A stretch of DNA of 64,000 nucleotides from Sphingobacteriaceae bacterium (GCA_947453445.1 CANGGP010000004.1:43484-107483), one strand, 5' to 3'; counted from the stretch's first letter, positions 12,989 through 25,447 are shown. Notes: a model not told the origin generated them from the letters alone. Made by a program: numbers and translations.

Positions 12989-13801
12989 CTAGAACAATTC
13001 AAATTTGACACCAAAAAATAATTCATCATTGGTTTCAAATTTGTTATTGTTAAAGTATGTGGCATTGTTATGCTCATACTCTACACCAAAAAACACACCT
13101 CTTAATTTTTCGAGTGAAATCCAAAGTGAAGCTTGAATGACCATCTGATTGGTAGGAAAAGTTGCACGGCCCATGCCTGTACTCGATAATTTAAAAATAT
13201 GAAATAATTTAAGCTCTTGAGTTGTGTACTCATAACCAAAAACATAATCAGGAAACACTCTGCTAATTAATGAAACGCGTTTAAAGACTAAATTATCGTA
13301 TGCGGTTATTTGCGGCCCAATACTTAAAAACTCTTGGCCTGTAATACTGCCTACTTCTGCCCCTAATTGAAATATTTTGGTTCCGAAATAACCTTCAGTG
13401 TACATGATTAAATCTTTCATATCACGTGCACCTTCATAGTGTGTATTGGCGTCGGCAAAAAACCTAACCCCGCCCAATAACTTTTCATTATTTGAATACA
13501 AGTGATAATCAAACATGGCTTCATGCTTCACAACAGGGTCACCGGGACGGATAATGTTCAATGGATACAACTCGAGCTCAGTTTCCAAATCCTCATGTTT
13601 CCTGATTTCCCGCGACAATGAATCATCACCTCTCGGATGGATTAAGCTCAAGCCTTTGGCTCTTGAAAATCCATAACCATTTTGCGCATTGCCACTTGTA
13701 TTTGCGAAAAGTAAAAAGCTGATTAGAAAATAAATTTGAATAGAACTCAAACAGGTTAAAGAAAATCTGTTGATTTTGATACTGAATTCTTTTGCCTTCA
13801 T
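12989..13801 (-). CDS. Predicted outer-membrane/secreted protein
   Basis: 270 aa, signal peptide, alternating beta-barrel-like C-terminus ending NDELFFGVKFELF. Confidence 0.65.
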   Translation of the reverse strand: MKAKEFSIKINRFSLTCLSSIQIYFLISFLLFANTSGNAQNGYGFSRAKGLSLIHPRGDDSLSREIRKHEDLETELELYPLNIIRPGDPVVKHEAMFDYHLYSNNEKLLGGVRFFADANTHYEGARDMKDLIMYTEGYFGTKIFQLGAEVGSITGQEFLSIGPQITAYDNLVFKRVSLISRVFPDYVFGYEYTTQELKLFHIFKLSSTGMGRATFPTNQMVIQASLWISLEKLRGVFFGVEYEHNNATYFNNNKFETNDELFFGVKFELF

Positions 13802-13905: not shown

Positions 13906-13917
13906 TGACATCCGTCA
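13906..13917. promoter_or_regulatory. Candidate Crp/Fnr-family operator TGAC-ATCC-GTCA
   Basis: Perfect palindromic half-sites; 105 bp upstream of the 13801 start codon; same motif at 22302 and 25436. Confidence 0.45.
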
Positions 13918-14036: not shown

Positions 14037-14465
14037 TTATTTCTTAAGGGTTCTCATAAAGTTAATAATGCTCCAGATCTCTTCGTCTTCAGTTATTTTC
14101 TTTTTGAATGAAGGCATATCTACTCTACCTTCTTTTATCTTATAAAATAATTCACCGTCAGTTTGATCAGCTACATCCTTGGCACTAAAATCACCACATG
14201 GGGTATCTAATTCTTTTGATTTAGGACCATCGCCCAAACCTTTAGCACCATGACATGATTTGCAATGTTTCATGAACAATGTTTTACCCGCCGCAATCGT
14301 TCCATCGTCGGATTTAACCGGGTTTTTCATTTTCTTAGAAGCATCAGGCACAACCCAAGGTTTCTTTTTTTCTTGAAACTTATTGTTAAATGACATTGTT
14401 ACAAATGCCAAAACAAACATTACAATTCCTGCAAGGAGGAAGTTTTTGTTGATTACAGTTTTCAT
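14037..14465 (-). CDS. Class I c-type cytochrome
   Basis: KHCKSCHGAKGLGDGP (CXXCH) and downstream Met ligand region VDMPSFKKKI. Confidence 0.88.
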   Translation of the reverse strand: MKTVINKNFLLAGIVMFVLAFVTMSFNNKFQEKKKPWVVPDASKKMKNPVKSDDGTIAAGKTLFMKHCKSCHGAKGLGDGPKSKELDTPCGDFSAKDVADQTDGELFYKIKEGRVDMPSFKKKITEDEEIWSIINFMRTLKK

Positions 14466-14531
14466 AAATTAAATTGATTTTAGGTTAATTGTTTGGTTAT
14501 ATATTTTTTTGTTTAGTTTTCAATCACTAAG

Positions 14532-15452
14532 TTAACGTAACTTTTTAATTTTAAATAAGAGTGAAATTAGGTAAAAAATAATTCCCCATATGGTAAAAAT
14601 GATGGTTACCGAAACAATTACTAAGGGCACAGGCGCATTTTGGCCTGAAGACCACAAAGTTCTTTTGGTGAATTTGTGCTCAATTGGTGGCACCGACCAA
14701 GGTATTCTTTTTGTTACTTCAATAATACCATCATTTTCTTGATCCTCATACCTGGCGGCAACTGTAATTGTTTTGTCGTTGTTACCCGGAATATCTTTCG
14801 GTAACACACCCGAAACTTCACCATTCTCATCGGTGCTTAAATTTTCTTCACCAAATGGTAAGGCACCAAATGTGCGTTTAATCAATAGCTTTATCTCAGT
14901 TTTAGCTGCCGGCGACTCAACACTGTCTTTAAACATCGAAAGTTTAGCCACAACAGTGGTTAAAGAATCAGCAACGCTGTTTGAAAGGCTTATTCTCACA
15001 TCATTCACTGTTATTTGCTCACTAGAGTTTTCAAATTTAGGATCTGTGCCAATGCTCGCAATAAAATTAAATACATGCGCCCCTGTTTTAATCCTTTTGA
15101 AATTATCACTCAAGTCAAACTCAACAACACCATCGTCGTCAGTTACCAAATTTCCCATCCAACCCTCTCCAGTAACAGGATTAAACTTTCTAACTTCCGA
15201 TAAATATAAATTCACAATGATGTTATTCACCGGAATAAACTTTTTTCCGTCTTTATAAGAAAGCTCAACCTTAATACTCGGTTTACCGTCAATAATCTTA
15301 TAACTTAATTTAAAGTTTGGCGTAATTTTGGTTGCTTCGCCGTCATTGCCTGCAAATGAACGTGCCACAAACACAAAAATCAAACTCAATAATAGCAAAA
15401 CCCTTTTGGTTTTTTTAAGCTGCAAATATGTTTTATTATGTATCATAATCAA
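14532..15452 (-). CDS. Membrane-anchored Ig-like protein of unknown function
   Basis: Signal peptide, beta-rich ectodomain, C-terminal TM VPLVIVSVTIIFTIWGIIFYLISLLFKIKKLR. Confidence 0.65.
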   Translation of the reverse strand: MIMIHNKTYLQLKKTKRVLLLLSLIFVFVARSFAGNDGEATKITPNFKLSYKIIDGKPSIKVELSYKDGKKFIPVNNIIVNLYLSEVRKFNPVTGEGWMGNLVTDDDGVVEFDLSDNFKRIKTGAHVFNFIASIGTDPKFENSSEQITVNDVRISLSNSVADSLTTVVAKLSMFKDSVESPAAKTEIKLLIKRTFGALPFGEENLSTDENGEVSGVLPKDIPGNNDKTITVAARYEDQENDGIIEVTKRIPWSVPPIEHKFTKRTLWSSGQNAPVPLVIVSVTIIFTIWGIIFYLISLLFKIKKLR

Positions 15453-15470
15453 TATTTTTTAGTTTGATTT

Positions 15471-16865
15471 TTATTCTTGCTCATTTAAATGTTTGTAAAT
15501 GGTGTAATGCGAAACACCTCTTTCTTCAGCCACTTCCCAAATTGAAATAATCGGAAAATAACGAATGAACAAGGTAATCACCAACAAGGCACCTGCCAAT
15601 GAAGCGCCTGTAATCGACCATTCGGCCAAAGTAGCTGTATAATGTTTAGCTGATTCAGGTACTTGTTGCAATGGTAAAAAAGGATGCAACATGGTTGGAA
15701 TTACAATCAAATAACGTTTAAACCATGCACCAATAATTACAAACACTGACATTAAAAAGATGGATCTCGGTTTACGTCCTTGCGGAAACAATAACACAAT
15801 AATTGGAATAAACATCCCGAAAATTTGTACCAACCAAAACATTGGTGCATAATGCCCAATAAACAATTCTTTTAAATGCGCGCCTTCATCACCTTTCATT
15901 TTATAACCCGGAATAAAATACTCGTTGATTGTAAAATACAAATAGATAAATGACAGCAACACCAATAAACGGCCCATTCTGTCGAAGTGTTTATCAGTGA
16001 TTAATTCGTCATATTTATTATAAAAATGACGTATCACATACATTCCCGCAATAACAGCGGCAGCTCCAACCATAAAGGCACCGGCCACAAAATAAGCACC
16101 AAAGTTGGTACTATCCCAACCCGGACGGTATGTAGTGGCAAATAACCATGATGTTACAGTATGTATACTTAAAGCCACCGGAATGATTAACACCGACAAA
16201 ATTGTAATGGCTTTTTTAACCATTTTGTATTGTGCAGGTTTATTGTTCCATCCCAAGGCTAAAATTTTATACATTTTGTGTTGCCATTTCGGAATGTTTT
16301 TCATCCGATCGCGGCAAAACGAAATACCCGGCAACAAAGGAAAATACAAGAACAACAAACTAATGGTCATGTATGTTGTTACCACAATCACGTCCCACAT
16401 AATCGGCGATTGAATCCTACCATGTATAAACATGTTGATGATTCTGTCAGGACGACCCATGTCAACGATAATGATTAAACCTGCAAAGATAATTCCTGCT
16501 ACCGCAATGATCTCAGCCATACGCGTAATTGGCGCACGCCAACTAACGTTTAACAAATTAAGCACGGCTGTAATTAATGATCCAACCAAACTCACCGCCA
16601 CAAAAAATACAAAGTTCGAAATGTAGATACCCCAAGAAACGGTATCGCTTAATCCGGTGATTGATAAGCCTTTCTTTAATTGAATCACATAATTGTATAA
16701 TCCAAATACAATCACCGCCACTAAAAATACAACCCAAATTTTTCCGGCTTTACCAAATTTTTGAGGTAACAAATCGTCGTTATAATGATGAAGCATTTCT
16801 ATTGCTTCTTTTTCACTCATATGTTTATTAGTTTCTTCCATAACTTTATTTTTTTTATGAATCAC
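15471..16865 (-). CDS. NrfD/PsrC-like polysulfide reductase family membrane subunit
   Basis: About 10 hydrophobic segments, VSWGIYISNFVFFVAVSLVGSL; overlaps the FeS gene by 11 bp. Confidence 0.85.
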   Translation of the reverse strand: MIHKKNKVMEETNKHMSEKEAIEMLHHYNDDLLPQKFGKAGKIWVVFLVAVIVFGLYNYVIQLKKGLSITGLSDTVSWGIYISNFVFFVAVSLVGSLITAVLNLLNVSWRAPITRMAEIIAVAGIIFAGLIIIVDMGRPDRIINMFIHGRIQSPIMWDVIVVTTYMTISLLFLYFPLLPGISFCRDRMKNIPKWQHKMYKILALGWNNKPAQYKMVKKAITILSVLIIPVALSIHTVTSWLFATTYRPGWDSTNFGAYFVAGAFMVGAAAVIAGMYVIRHFYNKYDELITDKHFDRMGRLLVLLSFIYLYFTINEYFIPGYKMKGDEGAHLKELFIGHYAPMFWLVQIFGMFIPIIVLLFPQGRKPRSIFLMSVFVIIGAWFKRYLIVIPTMLHPFLPLQQVPESAKHYTATLAEWSITGASLAGALLVITLFIRYFPIISIWEVAEERGVSHYTIYKHLNEQE

Positions 16866-17823
16866 TTTCTTTTTCTTCTCCGTTGCTATCTACAAATGGA
16901 AACAAGCGGTTAACCGGTGGTAAATAATACACACTAGGTTCAGTGCCTAAAGATTCCATATAACGGTAAGCAGCTTTGTCTTTCAACAATTGTTTGAATC
17001 GCAAAGTTTCATCACCATTGGTAACAGTATCTTCATTGGCATCGCCAAAATAATATACACCATTCGGGCAAGCAGTAACACAATGCGGTAATTTGCCTTG
17101 TTTCAACATATCCGGACAGAAATCACATTTTTCAACTGTACCTTTTTTACGCGGTGTGCTGGTTTCAGGCGAATACACCATCTCGTTTACATACTCAGGT
17201 TGTTGCGGTTCTTCCCAGTTAAAAGTTCTAGTTGAGTAAGGGCAAGCAGCCATGCAAAAACGACAACCAATGCAACGCTCATTATCAATCAACACCAAAC
17301 CATCTTCTCTTTTAAAGGTGGCGTCAACCGGACAAACCTTAACGCAAGGTGGCTTATCACAATGCAAACAAGGTTTAGGCATCCAATAAGGTGCTGTATC
17401 CTCGGTGTCTTGCATTTTATATACTTTTAACCACTTATCTTGTGCAGGCAACAGATGGTGTTTTTGACACGCTTTTTGGCATTTAAGTGCGTTTTTACAA
17501 CGCGACAAGTCAATCACCATTACATATTTTTTTCCCGGTACACCAACACGCGATTCATCAGGTGAAGCACCGCAATGGTGTTTAGGATGTGAATGTTCTT
17601 TTAGATAAGCTGAATCTACTTCTACCAATTTACCATCCGGTGTCAGTAATTTTACTTTCTCACCGGTTTCTTTGTTGGCCGGTTCTTCCTGATCGGATAA
17701 TACTTTTTGGATGCCACCACCTGCAATGGTTAATCCGGCTGTAAGAAATCCCAACTTGAGAAAATTTCTTCTACCGCTGGCCGCATCATCGTGTTTGTTT
17801 TGATCATCTGGCTTTTGAGACAT
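16855..17823 (-). CDS. Tat-exported 4Fe-4S ferredoxin subunit (DmsB/PsrB/NrfC-like)
   Basis: SGRRNFLKLGFLTAG Tat signal; CLHCDKPPCVKVCP, CIGCRFCMAACPYSTR, CDFCPDMLKQGKLPHCVTACPNG. Confidence 0.88.
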   Translation of the reverse strand: MSQKPDDQNKHDDAASGRRNFLKLGFLTAGLTIAGGGIQKVLSDQEEPANKETGEKVKLLTPDGKLVEVDSAYLKEHSHPKHHCGASPDESRVGVPGKKYVMVIDLSRCKNALKCQKACQKHHLLPAQDKWLKVYKMQDTEDTAPYWMPKPCLHCDKPPCVKVCPVDATFKREDGLVLIDNERCIGCRFCMAACPYSTRTFNWEEPQQPEYVNEMVYSPETSTPRKKGTVEKCDFCPDMLKQGKLPHCVTACPNGVYYFGDANEDTVTNGDETLRFKQLLKDKAAYRYMESLGTEPSVYYLPPVNRLFPFVDSNGEEKESDS

Positions 17824-18122
17824 ACGATTGATTTTTAAGGATAATTTATTTTATGAAAATTGAAAATTTGATTTGATTTTTTTGCAATGAAATTGAAGAA
17901 AATGGCGGTTTTATTTGATTTTTGATGCCTTCTAATTTTAGTTTCATAACAAACTCAAAGTACGCGCTGATTCTGATTTTTCAGCATGATGGCCATCAAA
18001 GAAACGTATGATTTTGATCAGTTGAAGAAAAATAATTTGCTCAAAAAAACATGTTGATCAAACAACTTAAACACTTGCCATTGCTTAAAAATCATCCATC
18101 GCAATCACTTTTTTCAAAAAAA

Positions 18123-18155
18123 AAAACTTCAGATGTAACACCTGAAGTTTTCTTT
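18123..18155 (-). terminator. Rho-independent terminator of redox module 1
   Basis: aaaacttcag...ctgaagttttc hairpin with A-run on + strand (T-run on minus). Confidence 0.75.
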
Positions 18156-18184
18156 GCCGAAAGGCAATATATTAATCGCTTAAA

Positions 18185-19087
18185 TTAGTAATTCCACAAA
18201 CGGGTCATGTTGAAGCCGATGCAAAAATCCATTTTAGCAAAATCATTTTTATTATACAACACATTGTATTGGTTGATAATCGATTGTCCGGTACTCACAA
18301 ACACTTGAAACACGTGCGATGATGTTGCAGCTTCTAAACCCAAACTTAAATTCGGCTTCACAGTAATCACCTTTGTATTTTGTGACGTTAAATTTTGTTC
18401 ATACTCAACAGTTACCGCTAAGGCTTCGGTAATTTTATAACGACCACTTACTGCCACCGCTATATTACCATGTTTCACCAATGAATCTACGATGTTGAAG
18501 TGAGAATAACTTGGTGCCAATTGTAAGGATAATTTTTCGCCAAATTTTCTCGCAATAATCAATTGATTAAAATAAGTCAAACGATCAACTGTTTTAGGGA
18601 AAACATCCTTTCTAACATCAATGGCGGCATTGCCAAAATAGGTAATACTCAAAGGAATACTTCCCGAACGAGTTTGCTTTAACAATGCATACTTAATGTT
18701 CACATCTTGCAATTTATTATTCTTTGTGGTTCCTAACCCAACTTGCAAATTTTTGCTCAAAGAATAATTAAACCCTATTCTAATATTCGATGGCGCATAC
18801 AATCCACCCAAGTCAAAATCCTTGCTGTTTAATAAACCAAATCGGTGTTGAATCACAAATTCCAATGTATTTGGGGTTGGAATAATCGCCGTTTGACTGT
18901 TCATCAAATAACCACTTTCAAACATGTTTTTTACCGGTCGGTTATCTTTTTTAGGTTTCTCTTCCGCAGCAGCAGTAGAATCAGCTTGTTGAGCACTTAC
19001 CATGCCTGTGCACAATTGTAACGATGCGAATACAATTAATGCTTTATTTAAAAAATTTGGTTTCATAATGATTGAGATATTCTTCAT
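18185..19087 (-). CDS. DUF5777-like beta-barrel protein (copy 1)
   Basis: FEFVIQHRFGLLNSKDFDLGGLYAPSNIRIGFNYSLSKNLQVGLGTTK...; paralogous to 22609-23514. Confidence 0.8.
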   Translation of the reverse strand: MKNISIIMKPNFLNKALIVFASLQLCTGMVSAQQADSTAAAEEKPKKDNRPVKNMFESGYLMNSQTAIIPTPNTLEFVIQHRFGLLNSKDFDLGGLYAPSNIRIGFNYSLSKNLQVGLGTTKNNKLQDVNIKYALLKQTRSGSIPLSITYFGNAAIDVRKDVFPKTVDRLTYFNQLIIARKFGEKLSLQLAPSYSHFNIVDSLVKHGNIAVAVSGRYKITEALAVTVEYEQNLTSQNTKVITVKPNLSLGLEAATSSHVFQVFVSTGQSIINQYNVLYNKNDFAKMDFCIGFNMTRLWNY

Positions 19088-19106
19088 GCTTTTTATTATT
19101 TACAGA

Positions 19107-19472
19107 CTAGTTTAATTTTGTTCCTTGTTTAATCCAACTCAACACCTTGTTAATTTCACTTGCGGGAAGTTTATTGGGCGGCATATTCGTATTCAACTTC
19201 ACCATAATTAGGCTTGTTGATGGATTTAGTGTATCGGTGTAACCACCATCAATCAAAGAATTATAAGCTTTTTCGCTTGTTAAATCGGGCTTAACATTTC
19301 CATTGTGGCATCCGCTCAAAGTACAATTGGTGGTAAACAAAGGTTGAATATCCTTCGAAAAACTAATCGTCGCATTCGGATCAATAACCGGTGGTTTAAA
19401 ATATTTCTTTTCGCATGAGGCAAACAAAATTGCCAAAACGAATATTTTGATATGAACAGAAGTGATTGTCAT
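19107..19472 (-). CDS. Small cytochrome c-like lipoprotein with CX4CH motif (copy 1)
   Basis: Lipobox LFASC, CTLSGCH, MPPNKLP; paralogous to 23526-23924. Confidence 0.82.
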   Translation of the reverse strand: MTITSVHIKIFVLAILFASCEKKYFKPPVIDPNATISFSKDIQPLFTTNCTLSGCHNGNVKPDLTSEKAYNSLIDGGYTDTLNPSTSLIMVKLNTNMPPNKLPASEINKVLSWIKQGTKLN

Positions 19473-19474
19473 AA

Positions 19475-20860
19475 TTATTTCAATTTAAATGTGAGCATTT
19501 GTTTTAAGGATCCTATATGGTTCTTTCCATCAGCATTCATTAATGCGATGCCAAACGGATATGATTTTCCTTCAGGAGTTGTAAACTGAACGTCATCCGC
19601 ATTTCCGGTGTTTAATTTACGCACCAAAATCACTTGATACAAAGTATGTGGTGTTACATTAATCCTGCTTCTGGTAACATTCGATACCGACCAAACATCG
19701 GCATGACTGCCGCTTGGAGGCGACAACAATACACCCGGTACACCACCCAATCCTTTGATATAAGCAATTAAATCATTTACACTGGCTGCTGGTACTTGCG
19801 ACCAATAAGTATTACCTTCATGGTTGCCGCTCGAAGCAAAACTAATTAAACTTGCACGTGAATATTTTTTCGCAAATCCAACTGCTGCAAAAGGTGTGGC
19901 TGAACCACTTGGACCATCACCTCCACCTTCATCGCCATGACAGTGACCACAGCCATAAACACTATTGTGATAAACCAAATCACCTTTATGATAATCGCCA
20001 ATAAAAGGTGTGATATTTGTGGTTGCAGTTGTATTCAATAAATAATAACCGGCATCCAACAATGTTGTTTTACCGTCGGGTCTGGTAAAAGATTGATCTA
20101 CACCGCTCCATTCGTAAGCCGGTTGCGATCGTGGGTTACCGGGTACCTTTTTATTTGAAGTAACCATGGCATTACCTGTATCTTTAACAAGGCCTTTGTT
20201 GGCATCTGTTACCATATCAGCAGCATAACCCAAAGCATCTGTCGTAGCAACATCCCACGACCAAATATCAACAGATCCTGCAGCCGGTTGCATTTTTCCT
20301 TGGTGACAAGAAGCTGCACAACCTTTGTCAACAAAGGTGCCTTCTGAACTTGAAGAATTATTTAAATCAAAGGCAATCGCCATCTTATCACTATTCCCTT
20401 GCGATGTCCATTGTCCTGTTGTATCTGATTTTAAAGGATCCGACGCGCCTAACAAAGTGGCCAAAGCATTGGTGGCATCCAAATTATTATCAACCCACTC
20501 AACATAAATATAAAGTTTAGAATCATCGTATGCCGCTTTCATGGTCAACTTAGGATCACCACCGGCATTAAAAGAACTTGTACCACCATATGTACCGGTC
20601 ATGTTTAAATAACCATTCGAATACAGGGCATTCTTGTTTAAATTTCCAACCGATACTTTTAAGTAATCGGCATTTTTCCAATAACTATCACTCAAAGTTA
20701 ATGGCGCTGTGCTAACGTAAGTAGCCTCCAGTGCAGTGGTTTGTACCGCCACTTTTGGTCCCGGAGGTTTTACAAAATATTTTTTCTCGCACGCAACAAT
20801 CAAACTTAATGTGATTGAAACGATGACGAATAGTGCTTTATGTCTTAGTATGATTTTCAT
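19475..20860 (-). CDS. Ethylbenzene-dehydrogenase-related heme lipoprotein (copy 1)
   Basis: ORF runs to 20935, but lipoprotein start MKIILRHKALFVIVSITLSLIVAC at 20860 is preferred; YVEWVDNN, CAASCH (CX3CH), CGHCH (CXXCH). Confidence 0.8.
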   Translation of the reverse strand: MKIILRHKALFVIVSITLSLIVACEKKYFVKPPGPKVAVQTTALEATYVSTAPLTLSDSYWKNADYLKVSVGNLNKNALYSNGYLNMTGTYGGTSSFNAGGDPKLTMKAAYDDSKLYIYVEWVDNNLDATNALATLLGASDPLKSDTTGQWTSQGNSDKMAIAFDLNNSSSSEGTFVDKGCAASCHQGKMQPAAGSVDIWSWDVATTDALGYAADMVTDANKGLVKDTGNAMVTSNKKVPGNPRSQPAYEWSGVDQSFTRPDGKTTLLDAGYYLLNTTATTNITPFIGDYHKGDLVYHNSVYGCGHCHGDEGGGDGPSGSATPFAAVGFAKKYSRASLISFASSGNHEGNTYWSQVPAASVNDLIAYIKGLGGVPGVLLSPPSGSHADVWSVSNVTRSRINVTPHTLYQVILVRKLNTGNADDVQFTTPEGKSYPFGIALMNADGKNHIGSLKQMLTFKLK

Positions 20861-20950
20861 AACTTTTTTATTGAATGCTTTAATCCTTATGGAAAGATAA
20901 TACTTTTTATCAGTTTCCTTTTTCAATCTCAACAAAAATTTTTCAAGAAT

Positions 20951-20979
20951 ACGGCAATCCGATTTGGATTGCCGTATTG
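20951..20979 (-). terminator. Intergenic hairpin/terminator after the YceI unit
   Basis: atacggcaatcc-gattt-ggattgccgtat perfect 12 bp stem. Confidence 0.75.
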
Positions 20980-21025
20980 ATTTTATTTACTCAATTGGAT
21001 GAATTCCAATCGAATGATATTTAAT

Positions 21026-21433
21026 TTATTGTACAGTTAAATCAGCAGTAACAGTACCTTTCTTGTCGCCAATTGTTGCATGACCACCGCCTGAGGTAAA
21101 AGTTTGACCGCTTGCATTGGTGTATTCTGCTGTTACAAAATAATCACCTCTTAACAAACCACCAAATGAATAGTTTCCGGCATCATCGGTAATGGTTGTA
21201 GCGTTGTGTGTGCTGCTTGCTGATGTAGCATTAAAAGTTATGTATACAATGGCTTTATTCACTGCCGCACCTTTTAAAGTTACTGTTCCTTTAATGGTTG
21301 CGCTTCCACCAAAATCATTGGTTTTTTTGCAAGATGTTAGTCCTAATAAAAACACGATGGCTATTAGGGCAATATTTTTGATTGTTTTCATTTGAATTTG
21401 TTTTTTAAGTTTTATTACTATTTCTATTTTCAA
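21026..21433 (-). CDS. Carboxypeptidase-regulatory-like lipoprotein
   Basis: Lipobox GLTSC; ATIKGTVTLKGAAVNKAIVYITF...DDAGNYSFGGLLRGDYFVTAEY. Confidence 0.8.
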   Translation of the reverse strand: MKIEIVIKLKKQIQMKTIKNIALIAIVFLLGLTSCKKTNDFGGSATIKGTVTLKGAAVNKAIVYITFNATSASSTHNATTITDDAGNYSFGGLLRGDYFVTAEYTNASGQTFTSGGGHATIGDKKGTVTADLTVQ

Positions 21434-21436
21434 TTA

Positions 21437-22204
21437 TTAATAAGTGTTGTTGACCATGTTACAGTCGACCCTTATTGTTACCACATCATTGATTGAAGTT
21501 GAATTTACCCCAAACACTGTATTCGCATTGATATCAAACGAACCATATAAACCTGCTCTGTCGGTTTTTTTGCCTGTAGTTGCATTGGTTAAGGTAGAAA
21601 TACCGGTATAAGACATTGGCATCGAAATTGGAACAGTTACACCACGGAAAGTAAAGTTACCTTTTACCATGTATCCGCTACCAAATCTTTCAACGCTGGT
21701 ACTTACAAACTTAGCAGTATCTGTTGTTGCTCTAGGCGCTAAAGTAAAGGCAGTTGCAGATGTTTTAGCAGTGGTATCAAATTTAATGCCCATGTAACCA
21801 GGACCGCATTTTCCGTAAGCATCTCTACCTGGTTCGCCGGTGTTAAAGGTTGATAATTGAACCCATGAACTAATTGACGAGTTGCCTGGATTTGCAGCGT
21901 CAAATTTTACTTTGATTTCAAAAATGTTAAAACGACCTGTTAATGGAGCGCCTGTTGCATAATATTTTGTTTCCCACATCACATTACTATGTGCTTTGTC
22001 TACCTTCCAAGCACCCGCTGTTGTATAACTTGCTGGTGGATAGCCCCCAATGCTGGCATTAATTACATCAGTTGATGATGTTGTGCTACTTGCTGTTAGT
22101 TGTTCATACTTGTTGTCTTTTTTACAACTGGTTACAAATACAATGGCTGTAACACCAATTCCTAAAATGGCAGTTAACAGTTTGCTTGTTGCTTTAGTTT
22201 TCAT
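21437..22204 (-). CDS. YceI family lipoprotein
   Basis: Likely start MKTKATSKLLTAILGIGVTAIVFVTSC at 22204; WKVDKAHSNVMWETKYYATGAPLTGRFNIFEIKVKFDAANP; the 22345 start in the ORF track includes promoter sequence. Confidence 0.85.
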   Translation of the reverse strand: MKTKATSKLLTAILGIGVTAIVFVTSCKKDNKYEQLTASSTTSSTDVINASIGGYPPASYTTAGAWKVDKAHSNVMWETKYYATGAPLTGRFNIFEIKVKFDAANPGNSSISSWVQLSTFNTGEPGRDAYGKCGPGYMGIKFDTTAKTSATAFTLAPRATTDTAKFVSTSVERFGSGYMVKGNFTFRGVTVPISMPMSYTGISTLTNATTGKKTDRAGLYGSFDINANTVFGVNSTSINDVVTIRVDCNMVNNTY

Positions 22205-22301
22205 AATTGTTATTGTTTGTTGGTTATTAATTGGTTTTAGTTTATCAGGTTTGTTATTCCTTTCGGTTGTAAAGGTACTCCCAAGACAAAATAAGTTGTA
22301 C

Positions 22302-22313
22302 TGACAGATGTCA
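22302..22313. promoter_or_regulatory. Candidate Crp/Fnr-family operator TGAC-AGAT-GTCA
   Basis: Perfect palindromic half-sites 98 bp upstream of the preferred YceI start. Confidence 0.5.
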
Positions 22314-22530
22314 GGATGTGAACTGACTCTAATCATCAAAAACATCTTTTTTTAACTAGCAATGAACTATTGCAGAGCGCCCGAAACTCAGTCATAGAAA
22401 GACTTCTGCGCAACTTTGAATGCACCATGCGATTAGCTTCGTTCACCAAGCCATCGAAAAATAAATCTTAAACACCAAAAAAAATATTCATTTTTTGCTT
22501 CATAAAATCAAAGTGCATCCTTCAATTAAA

Positions 22531-22562
22531 AAAAAAGCCAAATGGATTTCCATCTGGCTTTC
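22531..22562 (-). terminator. Rho-independent terminator of redox module 2
   Basis: aaagccaaatgg-attt-ccatctggcttt with A-run on + strand. Confidence 0.75.
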
Positions 22563-22608
22563 TTAAAAGTGAAATAGTCTGTTAAATCAACTTAGGCTCA
22601 ACAATCAT

Positions 22609-23514
22609 CTACCTTTTAGCAATGTTAAACCCTATTAAATACATACCCTTGGTATAATCATTATGATTGAAGAAACTGTTGGTTTGTGGCACTATGCTAT
22701 GATAATTGGTTAAGAATAATTGAAAAGTGTGAGTTGCTGTACCCATTTGCAATCCAAAACTCACATTCGGATTCGGATTATCACTCATGTGCTCAGTAAG
22801 CGGTTGATCATAATCCACAATCAACGAAAGCTTGTCGGTAATGGCATAAGCGCCCATAAACGATAGTGCAAAATGTGCATTTTTCATTTTTGGTTTAATG
22901 GTACCGTTCGAACTCACATAACCTTCTACATTGTTGTACCATGATAAACTTGGTGCCACTTGAACCGAAATAGCATTGTTGATTTTTCTGGCTATAATCA
23001 ATTGATGAAAGTATGACAATCGGTCGTAATCATTCACAAAATTGTCTTTCTTCGGACGTGTATCTACAGCCGCTAAGCCATAATAAGTAACACTTACAGG
23101 CGATCCGCCGGTTTTACCTTGCTTCAGTAATGCGTACTTTAAATTTGCATCCCATTGCATACGCTCCTTTGTAAAACCAAATCCCAATTGCAAATTTTCA
23201 ATCGGCGTATAGTTAAACCCTAATCGAATATTTGAAGAGGCATACAGGCCAAAAAAGTCTGAATAACCATTGTTCACATTGCCAAAGCGATGCTGCATGA
23301 TAAATTCAAAAACACCTTTTACGGGTACCATCACCGATTGGTTATCGATGATTAAATTTCCGTTAAATGTTTTTTTCACAAAATTAGATGCAGGTGCAGG
23401 TTTAGCTGCTGTGCTGTCTTGCGCTTTTATCGTAGAATTCAAAAGTACCAAGGCCATAAGCACACAAAGATACTTTGTTCCGTTTTTTATATATTTTACT
23501 GATTTATTTTTCAT
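22609..23514 (-). CDS. DUF5777-like beta-barrel protein (copy 2)
   Basis: FEFIMQHRFGNVNNGYSDFFGLYASSNIRLGFNYTPIENLQLGFGFTKERM aligns with copy 1. Confidence 0.8.
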   Translation of the reverse strand: MKNKSVKYIKNGTKYLCVLMALVLLNSTIKAQDSTAAKPAPASNFVKKTFNGNLIIDNQSVMVPVKGVFEFIMQHRFGNVNNGYSDFFGLYASSNIRLGFNYTPIENLQLGFGFTKERMQWDANLKYALLKQGKTGGSPVSVTYYGLAAVDTRPKKDNFVNDYDRLSYFHQLIIARKINNAISVQVAPSLSWYNNVEGYVSSNGTIKPKMKNAHFALSFMGAYAITDKLSLIVDYDQPLTEHMSDNPNPNVSFGLQMGTATHTFQLFLTNYHSIVPQTNSFFNHNDYTKGMYLIGFNIAKR

Positions 23515-23525
23515 ATGCTTTTTTT

Positions 23526-23924
23526 TTAATTGTTTGGGGCTCCTTGCTTAATCCAGGCCAATACCAAATTATTTAAGTTAGAAGGATTTGCACCGGCCGG
23601 CGGCATTGGAGTTGTTTTTTTACCGGTAATCCATAAGTAAATATTGCTGTTTTCAGGATTGCTAACATCAATATAATTGCCTCCACTCAGTACGCTATAA
23701 GCCTTCTCTGCAGATAAATCCGGACTGCGTCCTCCGGCGGCATGACAACCCGTTACACTGCAATTGGCAGTTAAAATGGGTTGTATGTCGGTTGCGAAAC
23801 TCACATTCGCTGTTACTTCTTCCACTGTACTTTTAGGCACAGTAGCCACCTTGTAACAACTTTGCAAGCCTACTATAGCGCCAACAATGGCAACCATAAT
23901 AATTGTTGTTTTTTTAATTGACAT
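23526..23924 (-). CDS. Small cytochrome c-like lipoprotein with CX4CH motif (copy 2)
   Basis: Lipobox GLQSC, CSVTGCH, TPMPPAG. Confidence 0.82.
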   Translation of the reverse strand: MSIKKTTIIMVAIVGAIVGLQSCYKVATVPKSTVEEVTANVSFATDIQPILTANCSVTGCHAAGGRSPDLSAEKAYSVLSGGNYIDVSNPENSNIYLWITGKKTTPMPPAGANPSNLNNLVLAWIKQGAPNN

Positions 23925-23979
23925 GATTTCAGTTTTTTAATCAATAATTCAATGAATTAATTCTTCAAAATAATGACCC

Positions 23980-25335
23980 TTACTTTTGAAATTTCAATGT
24001 CAAGTTTGGTTTAATACCGTGTTGATAATTAGATTTATTAAATATTGCCACACCAAATGGCTGATCTTGCAAGGATGAAAAATCAACATCTTGTTTCAAC
24101 GCATCGGTTGTTTTAAGCAAACGTTTCCATTCAATTACCCAACCACTACCGGTATAATTTACCATACAGTTAATGTCAGCACGACCTTTGGTTAAAGGCA
24201 TAGATACATAACTTGGTATGATTTTAGGACCACCGCCACCATAAATTGGATCTCCTACTCTTTGATAATCTGTACCAACATTTGGATCAATTTTGCTGCC
24301 ATCACTGAGGGTTAATACACCCAAGGTATCTAAGCCTTTAATTTGTTTCGCCACACCTGCATCAATGTCTGTTTGCAAGATGTAATAATAATCGGTTTTA
24401 CCGGGAATTAAATATTTTGGTGCAGTAGTAGTTAAAGTTTTACCCATAACAGTTAGTGTAAAAGTTTGTGAATTGTTGCTGGTTCCACCAACATTGGCCG
24501 AATACACAGGACCATAAGGGTAACTAGTAGAAGAACCGGTTACTACTTGATCATCTTGGTGACGACCATTACCGCTACCACCTACTAGATTCGTAATCGA
24601 TGGTCCACCGGCCCAATCTTGATACTCATCCGAAAACTGCCCGTTAATTGGATCTCTGCCAATTTTTAACCACCACATGTCAATTTTTTCGTTTGCACCA
24701 TTGGTATAGTGATTACCGCTAGCATTCGACTTCACAGTAGCAGGGGTTGTTGTAGGATCGAGATATGGTGTAAATGTATGACAGCTTGCGTAACATGTTT
24801 GCGCTGCAAATTTAGAAGTTGAATTATCGATGTTCCATAAAAACGCCAATTTATCTTCACCCCATCCATCTCTGGTGATATTGCCATTCGAATCGAATGT
24901 TTTTGCTGAAGGTTCTTGCGCCCATCTTTTTGTTGTTGGATTAAAATACCAAGGTGAAACCTGCACACTTTTATCATTATCGGCGTACTGTGCCAAAAAA
25001 TAAACATAGGTGCCATCATACATCGATTTTAACGACACAGGGTATTGTGTGCCTACATAACCGTTAAACAAACCATTGCCCGGATCAGGCACTTGTGTTG
25101 TTGTGTTTAATTGTGTGGCATTGTCCCATACTGCATCCACAATTCCGTCAATGGTAGGCGCATTATCCGTTTTAGCACATAATAAGTCTGCCGGATTAGT
25201 TACCACGGCCGGTAAATCGGCTGTTTTTACATCTAAAGTTTGATTGGTTTTGGTACAACTCACCATCAAGGCGATTCCTGTAAATCCGATGCCAAGTACT
25301 GTGGCCATCAGTTTTTTTGCTCCTTTTGATTTCAT
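23980..25335 (-). CDS. Ethylbenzene-dehydrogenase-related heme lipoprotein (copy 2)
   Basis: Lipobox LMVSC, APTIDGIVDAVWDNA, YFLAQYADNDKS, CYASCH (CX3CH), WVIEWKRLLKT. Confidence 0.82.
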   Translation of the reverse strand: MKSKGAKKLMATVLGIGFTGIALMVSCTKTNQTLDVKTADLPAVVTNPADLLCAKTDNAPTIDGIVDAVWDNATQLNTTTQVPDPGNGLFNGYVGTQYPVSLKSMYDGTYVYFLAQYADNDKSVQVSPWYFNPTTKRWAQEPSAKTFDSNGNITRDGWGEDKLAFLWNIDNSTSKFAAQTCYASCHTFTPYLDPTTTPATVKSNASGNHYTNGANEKIDMWWLKIGRDPINGQFSDEYQDWAGGPSITNLVGGSGNGRHQDDQVVTGSSTSYPYGPVYSANVGGTSNNSQTFTLTVMGKTLTTTAPKYLIPGKTDYYYILQTDIDAGVAKQIKGLDTLGVLTLSDGSKIDPNVGTDYQRVGDPIYGGGGPKIIPSYVSMPLTKGRADINCMVNYTGSGWVIEWKRLLKTTDALKQDVDFSSLQDQPFGVAIFNKSNYQHGIKPNLTLKFQK

Positions 25336-25435: not shown

Positions 25436-25447
25436 TGACGTATGTCA
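25436..25447. promoter_or_regulatory. Candidate Crp/Fnr-family operator TGAC-GTAT-GTCA
   Basis: Perfect palindromic half-sites 101 bp upstream of the 25335 start codon. Confidence 0.5.

Follow-up and report, generated by a model that had tools for sequence, protein, structure and literature searches.

The described systems closest to the gene set considered here are alternative complex III (ACIII; ActABCDEF), with its ActC-type NrfD protein, iron–sulphur (FeS) protein and cytochrome c partner, and the DsrJOP part of DsrMKJOP together with QrcCD. Single components also recall the gamma subunits EbdC and NXR-C and the porin–cytochrome conduits of the MtrCAB type. The gene set is an island of 12 genes, all on the minus strand, at positions 14037-25335 of a 64,000-nucleotide stretch of DNA (the window) from a Sphingobacteriaceae bacterium. 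It is a variant of the NrfD–FeS module which, by the tests made, lies outside the type II dimethyl sulphoxide (DMSO)-reductase complexes, ACIII and DsrMKJOP. We judge there to be about an even chance that it encodes an Fnr-regulated menaquinol:cytochrome c oxidoreductase for nitric oxide (NO)/nitrous oxide (N2O) and low-oxygen respiration, together with heme partners tethered to the outer membrane. From the promoter end the gene order is EB_dh1, small cytochrome, DUF5777a; YceI, CarboxypepD_reg-like lipoprotein, EB_dh2, small cytochrome, DUF5777b; FeS, NrfD, MG, cytochrome c. Profile searches found every gene named in a preliminary description of this DNA in its place: an FeS protein exported by twin-arginine translocation (Tat), NrfD, cytochrome c, two EB_dh proteins, YceI, two DUF5777 proteins and the small cytochromes.

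The last four genes form the core of the island. The NrfD-family quinol subunit (15471-16865; PF03916, 8e-37) belongs to the ActC/DsrP group. Its best match among PDB structures is ActC of ACIII (6lod_C, 2e-52; 6btm_C, 6e-50), no PsrC structure passed 1e-5 in that search, and an NrfD of the PsrC/DmsC type was rejected on the PDB match and the family scores. In an alignment with R. marinus ActC, read with the residues tabulated in PMC8076601, Ser164 and Asp169 of the ActC quinone site are kept as S148 and D153, and the gate residue Arg395 as R379, all of them invariant in our alignment. In a tree of 53 NrfD proteins those of the core form a clade separate from ActC with 100/100 support, within which two subclades are seen.

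The FeS protein (16855-17823; Fer4_11, 1e-21) is a four-cluster protein with the twin-arginine motif GRRNFL. In NCBIfam it scores highest against DsrO (193 bits, cut-off 200) and then QrcC (148 bits), and NrfD matches DsrP with 140 bits (cut-off 350). Despite this likeness both fall under the equivalog cut-offs, and DsrM/K, triheme DsrJ and QrcA/QrcB are missing from the island. Against the type II beta-subunit profile TIGR03478 the FeS protein reaches 79.8 bits, where the cut-off is 480.7. The earlier view of these genes as accessory subunits of a DMSO-reductase-type enzyme is thus not supported, NrfD matching ActC and the FeS protein being nearest to DsrO. Fifteen cluster cysteines are present in the FeS protein, one having gone from the first motif (C-x2-A-x2-C-x3-C), and none of the 41 relatives with a readable motif has a cysteine at that position. 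The cluster adjoining ActC is given as a [3Fe-4S] cluster (PMC8076601); the cysteine count is compatible with three [4Fe-4S] clusters and one ACIII-like [3Fe-4S] cluster. Together, the NrfD membrane subunit and the periplasmic four-cluster FeS protein make up a redox module of the complex iron–sulphur molybdoenzyme (CISM) type.

The third core gene, MG (14532-15452), encodes a signal peptide, immunoglobulin-like domains and one C-terminal transmembrane segment, with a weak match to MG4 (0.004). It is very probably a subunit of the core complex, because 16 Bacteroidales-type loci encode it as a fusion with NrfD (226-259 bits). The fusion proteins (L052, L053, L057 and 13 further loci) are 738-751 amino acids long, and in most of these loci a divergently transcribed Crp/Fnr gene lies beside the FeS gene. 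The fourth gene (14037-14465; PF00034, 4.8e-12) encodes a membrane-anchored class I cytochrome c whose CXXCH motif is kept in 71/71 relatives. The core resembles ACIII in an NrfD whose best PDB match is ActC, in an FeS protein with one cluster cysteine fewer, in its cytochrome c partner and in the menaquinol:cytochrome c activity to be expected of it. Unlike ACIII, it lacks a pentaheme ActA, the molybdopterin-like domain of ActB and a second NrfD protein (ActF); its NrfD falls in a separate clade, and the island adds Fnr-type operators and outer-membrane cassettes.

No molybdopterin gene lies within the 11-kb island, as the preliminary description had said. The genome assembly is a draft of 3.7 Mb in 153 contigs, rated 100% complete, and a search of the whole of it gave just two molybdopterin-family proteins. 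These are FdhA (905 amino acids; Fdh-alpha, 805 bits; NuoF-like neighbour) and ActB of ACIII, which together with ActC sits away from the island on contig C61. The island NrfD and ActC are the only NrfD-family proteins of the genome, and its only EB_dh proteins are the two of the island. A search with the FeS protein produced 405 candidate loci, of which 79, from Bacteroidota, were examined; when these 79 core loci were scanned with FdhA and a type II alpha subunit as queries, none (0/79) contained a molybdopterin open reading frame (ORF). Since no alpha subunit for the island was found in the genome or in the 79 loci, the island is complete without a molybdopterin subunit. Its parts appear never to have had the molybdenum enzyme they recall, and to form a complete electron-transfer system. 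This agrees with the earlier suggestion of electron delivery from quinol to the periplasm without a molybdenum enzyme of its own. A second FeS paralogue in the same genome (L128:9071-10000, contig C14), 56% identical to that of the island, has no NrfD beside it; as the genome has just one NrfD that is not ActC, this paralogue is an orphan or remnant. The locus that supplied the type II query, L146:8665-14293 in another genome of the phylum, has next to one another the molybdopterin alpha gene, an FeS subunit gene and an ORF where the EB_dh hit lies, in the ordinary alpha–beta–gamma arrangement.

The arrangement is widely shared. The order FeS–NrfD–MG–cytochrome c recurs throughout the 79 examined Bacteroidota loci, far beyond chance, and several loci contain tandem double cores. 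The core usually adjoins a cassette of the form X–cytochrome–DUF5777, in which EB_dh, YceI or a multiheme cytochrome resembling MtrC takes the place of X. The small cytochrome directly precedes DUF5777 in 48/56 cases, and the gene before this pair encodes EB_dh in 25, YceI in 11 and other proteins in the rest. Among these others are lipoproteins carrying 6-9 CXXCH motifs, with matches to MtrC/MtrF domains (PF22113, 7e-18) and cytochrome c7. In one locus (L047:9068-9895), with relatives in L044 and L046, a CXXCH protein bearing a sorting domain of the type IX secretion system (T9SS) lies between DUF5777 and FeS, and it is possible that this is an exported cytochrome. In five loci (L085, L089, L099, L104 and L106) a different type of cassette, encoded on the opposite strand, adjoins the core; it consists of DUF5777 and larger CX4CH lipoproteins (about 400 amino acids; PSCyt1-like in L089). 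Within the genus of the window an extra NrfD is rare, being found only in G000, G041 and G032 of about 40 genomes, and the island is therefore accessory. Carriers that can be cultured are Ferruginibacter paludis, Ancylomarina salipaludis and Aestuariivivens insulae. Literature searches for this gene set gave no match.

The promoters of the island share an operator. The palindrome TGAYnnnnRTCA occurs nine times in the window, against 4.1 expected, and six of the nine occurrences lie in island promoters, counting that of the neighbouring gene at 12989-13801. One box, TGACGTATGTCA, stands before EB_dh1 (25436-25447); tandem pairs spaced 22 bp stand before YceI (22324-22335 and 22302-22313) and before FeS (18009-18020 and 17987-17998); and a further box (13906-13917) precedes the neighbouring gene. 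Island-gene promoters account for 1.9% of the sequence of the 79 loci and contain 106 of the 250 boxes (2.8 expected); 56 loci have such promoter boxes, and where boxes are closely paired their spacing is exactly 22 bp in 20/22. Among all four-base palindromes counted (spacers 4, 5, 6 and 8), TGAT-N4-ATCA ranks first. Judged by its sequence, TGAYnnnnRTCA is an FNR/DNR box; its TGAC form resembles HcpR sites (PMC1274295). Palindromic TGA-type boxes are thus found upstream of the transcription units of the island, in the manner of a Crp/Fnr regulon, and many relatives have Crp/Fnr genes next to the island. Elsewhere in the same genome the nosC–nosZ operon is preceded by two boxes with a spacing of 44 bp, and the contig carries two candidate Crp/Fnr genes beside the operon (L127, 1526 and 2305); boxes also stand upstream of ccoN and ccoI. 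A homogentisate-dioxygenase-like gene (L119:378-1550), identified by eye, has an FNR-type box about 70 bp upstream.

The genome carries ACIII with an aa3 oxidase, a cbb3 oxidase, a NorC–NorB-like pair and a Sec-type NosZ (925 bits). Of the enzymes that the preliminary description had proposed to look for, NosZ is present; Nor is represented by the divergent NorB/NorC-like pair, canonical cytochrome c-dependent nitric oxide reductase (cNOR) not being matched; and the genome gave no NirK match and no full-length NirS. A nitrate-reductase-type molybdoenzyme is likewise absent from it. The NorB-like protein is paired with a NorC-like cytochrome but lacks the residues aligned to cNOR His207 (the FeB histidine) and Glu211; with these key ligands not conserved, canonical cNOR was rejected and the gene is named NorB-like only. 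The NorC/NorB-like pair (L119:13256-14988) occurs in 8/395 Bacteroidota genomes, all with nosZ. In the same sample of 395 genomes, analysed by Fisher tests, the FeS gene is present in ten, and nosZ is found in 10/10 of these against 129/395 overall (p=1e-5). Of the FeS genomes 4/10 have the NorB-like gene, against 8/395 (p=1e-5). The association of the core with EB_dh, another proposed check, was also recovered (6/10 FeS genomes against 19/395, p=1e-6). In one locus (L133) the genes cytochrome–DUF5777–FeS–NrfD–MG–cytochrome c are followed, after four more genes, by NorC–NorB on the same strand, and in another (L138) EB_dh–cytochrome–DUF5777 is followed after two genes by NorC–NorB, again on the same strand; the two loci come from two genomes of one family.

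The cassette genes of the island comprise two such units. The first contains EB_dh1 (23980-25335; PF09459, 1.1e-18), with a lipoprotein-type signal (VSC) and an EB_dh heme domain with a CX3CH motif (CYASCH), a small lipoprotein cytochrome with CX4CH (CSVTGCH; 23526-23924) and the outer-membrane beta barrel DUF5777a (22609-23514; PF19089, 6e-72), 3' of which lies a terminator-like hairpin (22531-22564; 15-bp stem and T run). The second opens with a YceI lipoprotein (21437-22345; PF04264, 5.8e-20), which has no heme motif and for which comparison with relatives makes the ATG at 22204 the most likely start. It continues with a small lipoprotein with a CarboxypepD_reg-like domain (21026-21433; most likely start the ATG at 21391), whose match to PF13620 (2e-7) is slightly below the cut-off. 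There follow EB_dh2 (19475-20935; PF09459, 1.8e-17; most likely start the ATG at 20860), with CX3CH (CAASCH) and a fused monoheme CXXCH cytochrome domain (Cytochrome_CBB3, 3e-4), a second small CX4CH lipoprotein cytochrome (CTLSGCH; 19107-19472) and DUF5777b (18185-19087; PF19089, 7.8e-74), a second outer-membrane barrel. Lipoprotein calls are based on lipobox-like sequences judged by eye and with a crude pattern. Directly outside the island, the minus-strand gene at 12989-13801 encodes a probable outer-membrane protein of an unknown family. It probably belongs to the same gene set and regulon, since the same operator stands 105 bp upstream of it and its homologue (2e-94) adjoins the island in the closest relative, L037.

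The EB_dh proteins belong to the same heme-binding family as EbdC and NXR-C, and both match Pfam EB_dh. Unlike those subunits they are lipoprotein-type proteins with CX3CH, so that they do not look like ordinary gamma subunits; they also have no alpha partner and are placed with a small cytochrome and DUF5777. EB_dh2 scores 14 bits against the gamma-subunit profile TIGR03477 (cut-off 169.9). In a comparison of the family profile with the PDB, NXR-C is nearest (3e-13) and EbdC far weaker (0.88). NXR-C is an electron-transfer subunit whose heme b is ligated by Met/Lys (PMC8387239). The CX3CH motif of EB_dh1 is kept in 18/18 full-length relatives, and alignment reveals a nearly invariant histidine (H439) close to its C-terminus; the two features suggest a covalent, six-coordinate heme and a role in electron transfer instead of catalysis. 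Nothing of relevance came from a literature search on EB_dh and Bacteroidetes, and no mention of DUF5777 was found in the literature searched.

In the scheme that we favour, the ActC/DsrP-type NrfD would oxidise menaquinol on its periplasmic side. The FeS protein, with three [4Fe-4S] clusters and a probable [3Fe-4S] cluster, would then hand the electrons on to the anchored cytochrome c, MG being a structural subunit. From there they would enter the periplasmic cytochrome pool and reach NosZ, the NorB/NorC-like enzyme and the cbb3 oxidase. The lipoproteins of the cassettes (EB_dh, YceI and small cytochromes) and the DUF5777 barrels would be outer-membrane-tethered partners, carrying electrons or serving substrates near the outer membrane. 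The gene content, the missing alpha subunit, the family placements, the operators and the co-occurrence across genomes are observations; which way electrons flow, what accepts them and what the barrel cassette does are inferred. Several points weigh against this scheme. Two of the four ActC quinone-site residues are changed: the position of His139 is Asp in the island NrfD and other residues in some relatives, and that of Asp253 is Leu, elsewhere Leu or Ile. Asp in place of His139 is listed for DsrP and QrcD (PMC8076601). The genome also holds ACIII, which could supply the same cytochromes. With 129 genomes, nosZ is much commoner than the core with ten; N2O reduction therefore does not require the core, and the presence of nosZ may be a mere marker of life at low oxygen. 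Shared ancestry is not corrected for in the Fisher tests, and the ten core genomes represent six families.

It is possible, though in our view unlikely, that the island serves outer-membrane (extracellular) electron transfer, the core oxidising menaquinol and the X–cytochrome–DUF5777 cassettes passing electrons to or from cell-surface acceptors or donors. The MtrC/MtrF-like multiheme lipoproteins found as X, the T9SS-tailed CXXCH protein of L047 and the fact that cassette proteins are barrels or bear lipoprotein-type signals all speak for this, and barrel plus lipoprotein cytochrome is a likeness to MtrCAB. The barrel of MtrB has 26 strands, however, whereas the AlphaFold2 model of DUF5777a (pLDDT 91.5) has 12. 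It would thus be far narrower and unlikely to sheath a cytochrome, and its partner is a monoheme CX4CH cytochrome in place of the decaheme MtrA; an Mtr-type conduit, which has a large barrel with an inserted multiheme cytochrome, is disfavoured. In addition there is no heme motif in YceI, which often stands as X, and the regulatory and genome associations point to nosZ. A related and equally tentative idea is that DUF5777 and the CX4CH lipoprotein cytochrome may be an undescribed outer-membrane electron-transfer unit with swappable surface partners (EB_dh, YceI, the MtrC-like multiheme protein or the T9SS-exported cytochrome), by which, in N2O-reducing Bacteroidota, a menaquinol oxidoreductase free of molybdenum and under Fnr control would be joined to donors or acceptors outside the cell.

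We regard as improbable a backup complex III for oxygen only, in which the core would replace ACIII at low oxygen and feed cbb3, with nosZ a passive correlate. The boxes before ccoN and ccoI and the ActC-like NrfD would suit such a role, but nosZ is present in all ten core genomes, and the core or an EB_dh cassette lies within a few genes of the norC/norB-like genes in two genomes of one family. There is little probability that the EB_dh proteins are unrecognised N-oxide reductases, for example the nitrite reductase missing from a genome with NosZ and a NorB/NorC-like pair, yet no NirK, full-length NirS or nitrate-reductase-type molybdoenzyme. NXR-C, their nearest solved relative, is itself an electron-transfer subunit, H439 and CX3CH suggest six-coordinate heme, and the gap rests on searches for NirK and NirS, NrfA not having been searched for. 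A split operon, in which an enzyme of the type II DMSO-reductase family would have its beta, NrfD and gamma subunits encoded here and its alpha subunit elsewhere (the case that the preliminary description named as refuting its view), would account for the occurrence of EB_dh and FeS families in such enzymes and has a parallel in the ordinary arrangement of L146, but it is very improbable and was rejected, barring an alpha gene lost from the draft assembly, by the whole-genome and 79-locus searches, which found FdhA and ActB only and no alpha gene respectively, and the NrfD is not of the PsrC kind.

Nitrous oxide is a greenhouse gas, and the enzyme encoded by nosZ destroys it. Bacteroidota make up the majority (53%) of genomes with nosZ but no nitrite reductase in a recent survey (PMC12569097). 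The island is a candidate for a regulated route from quinol to cytochrome in such organisms, encoded by genes which have been annotated as leftovers of other enzymes, and it offers a concrete regulon, a conserved complex and named genes for experiment.

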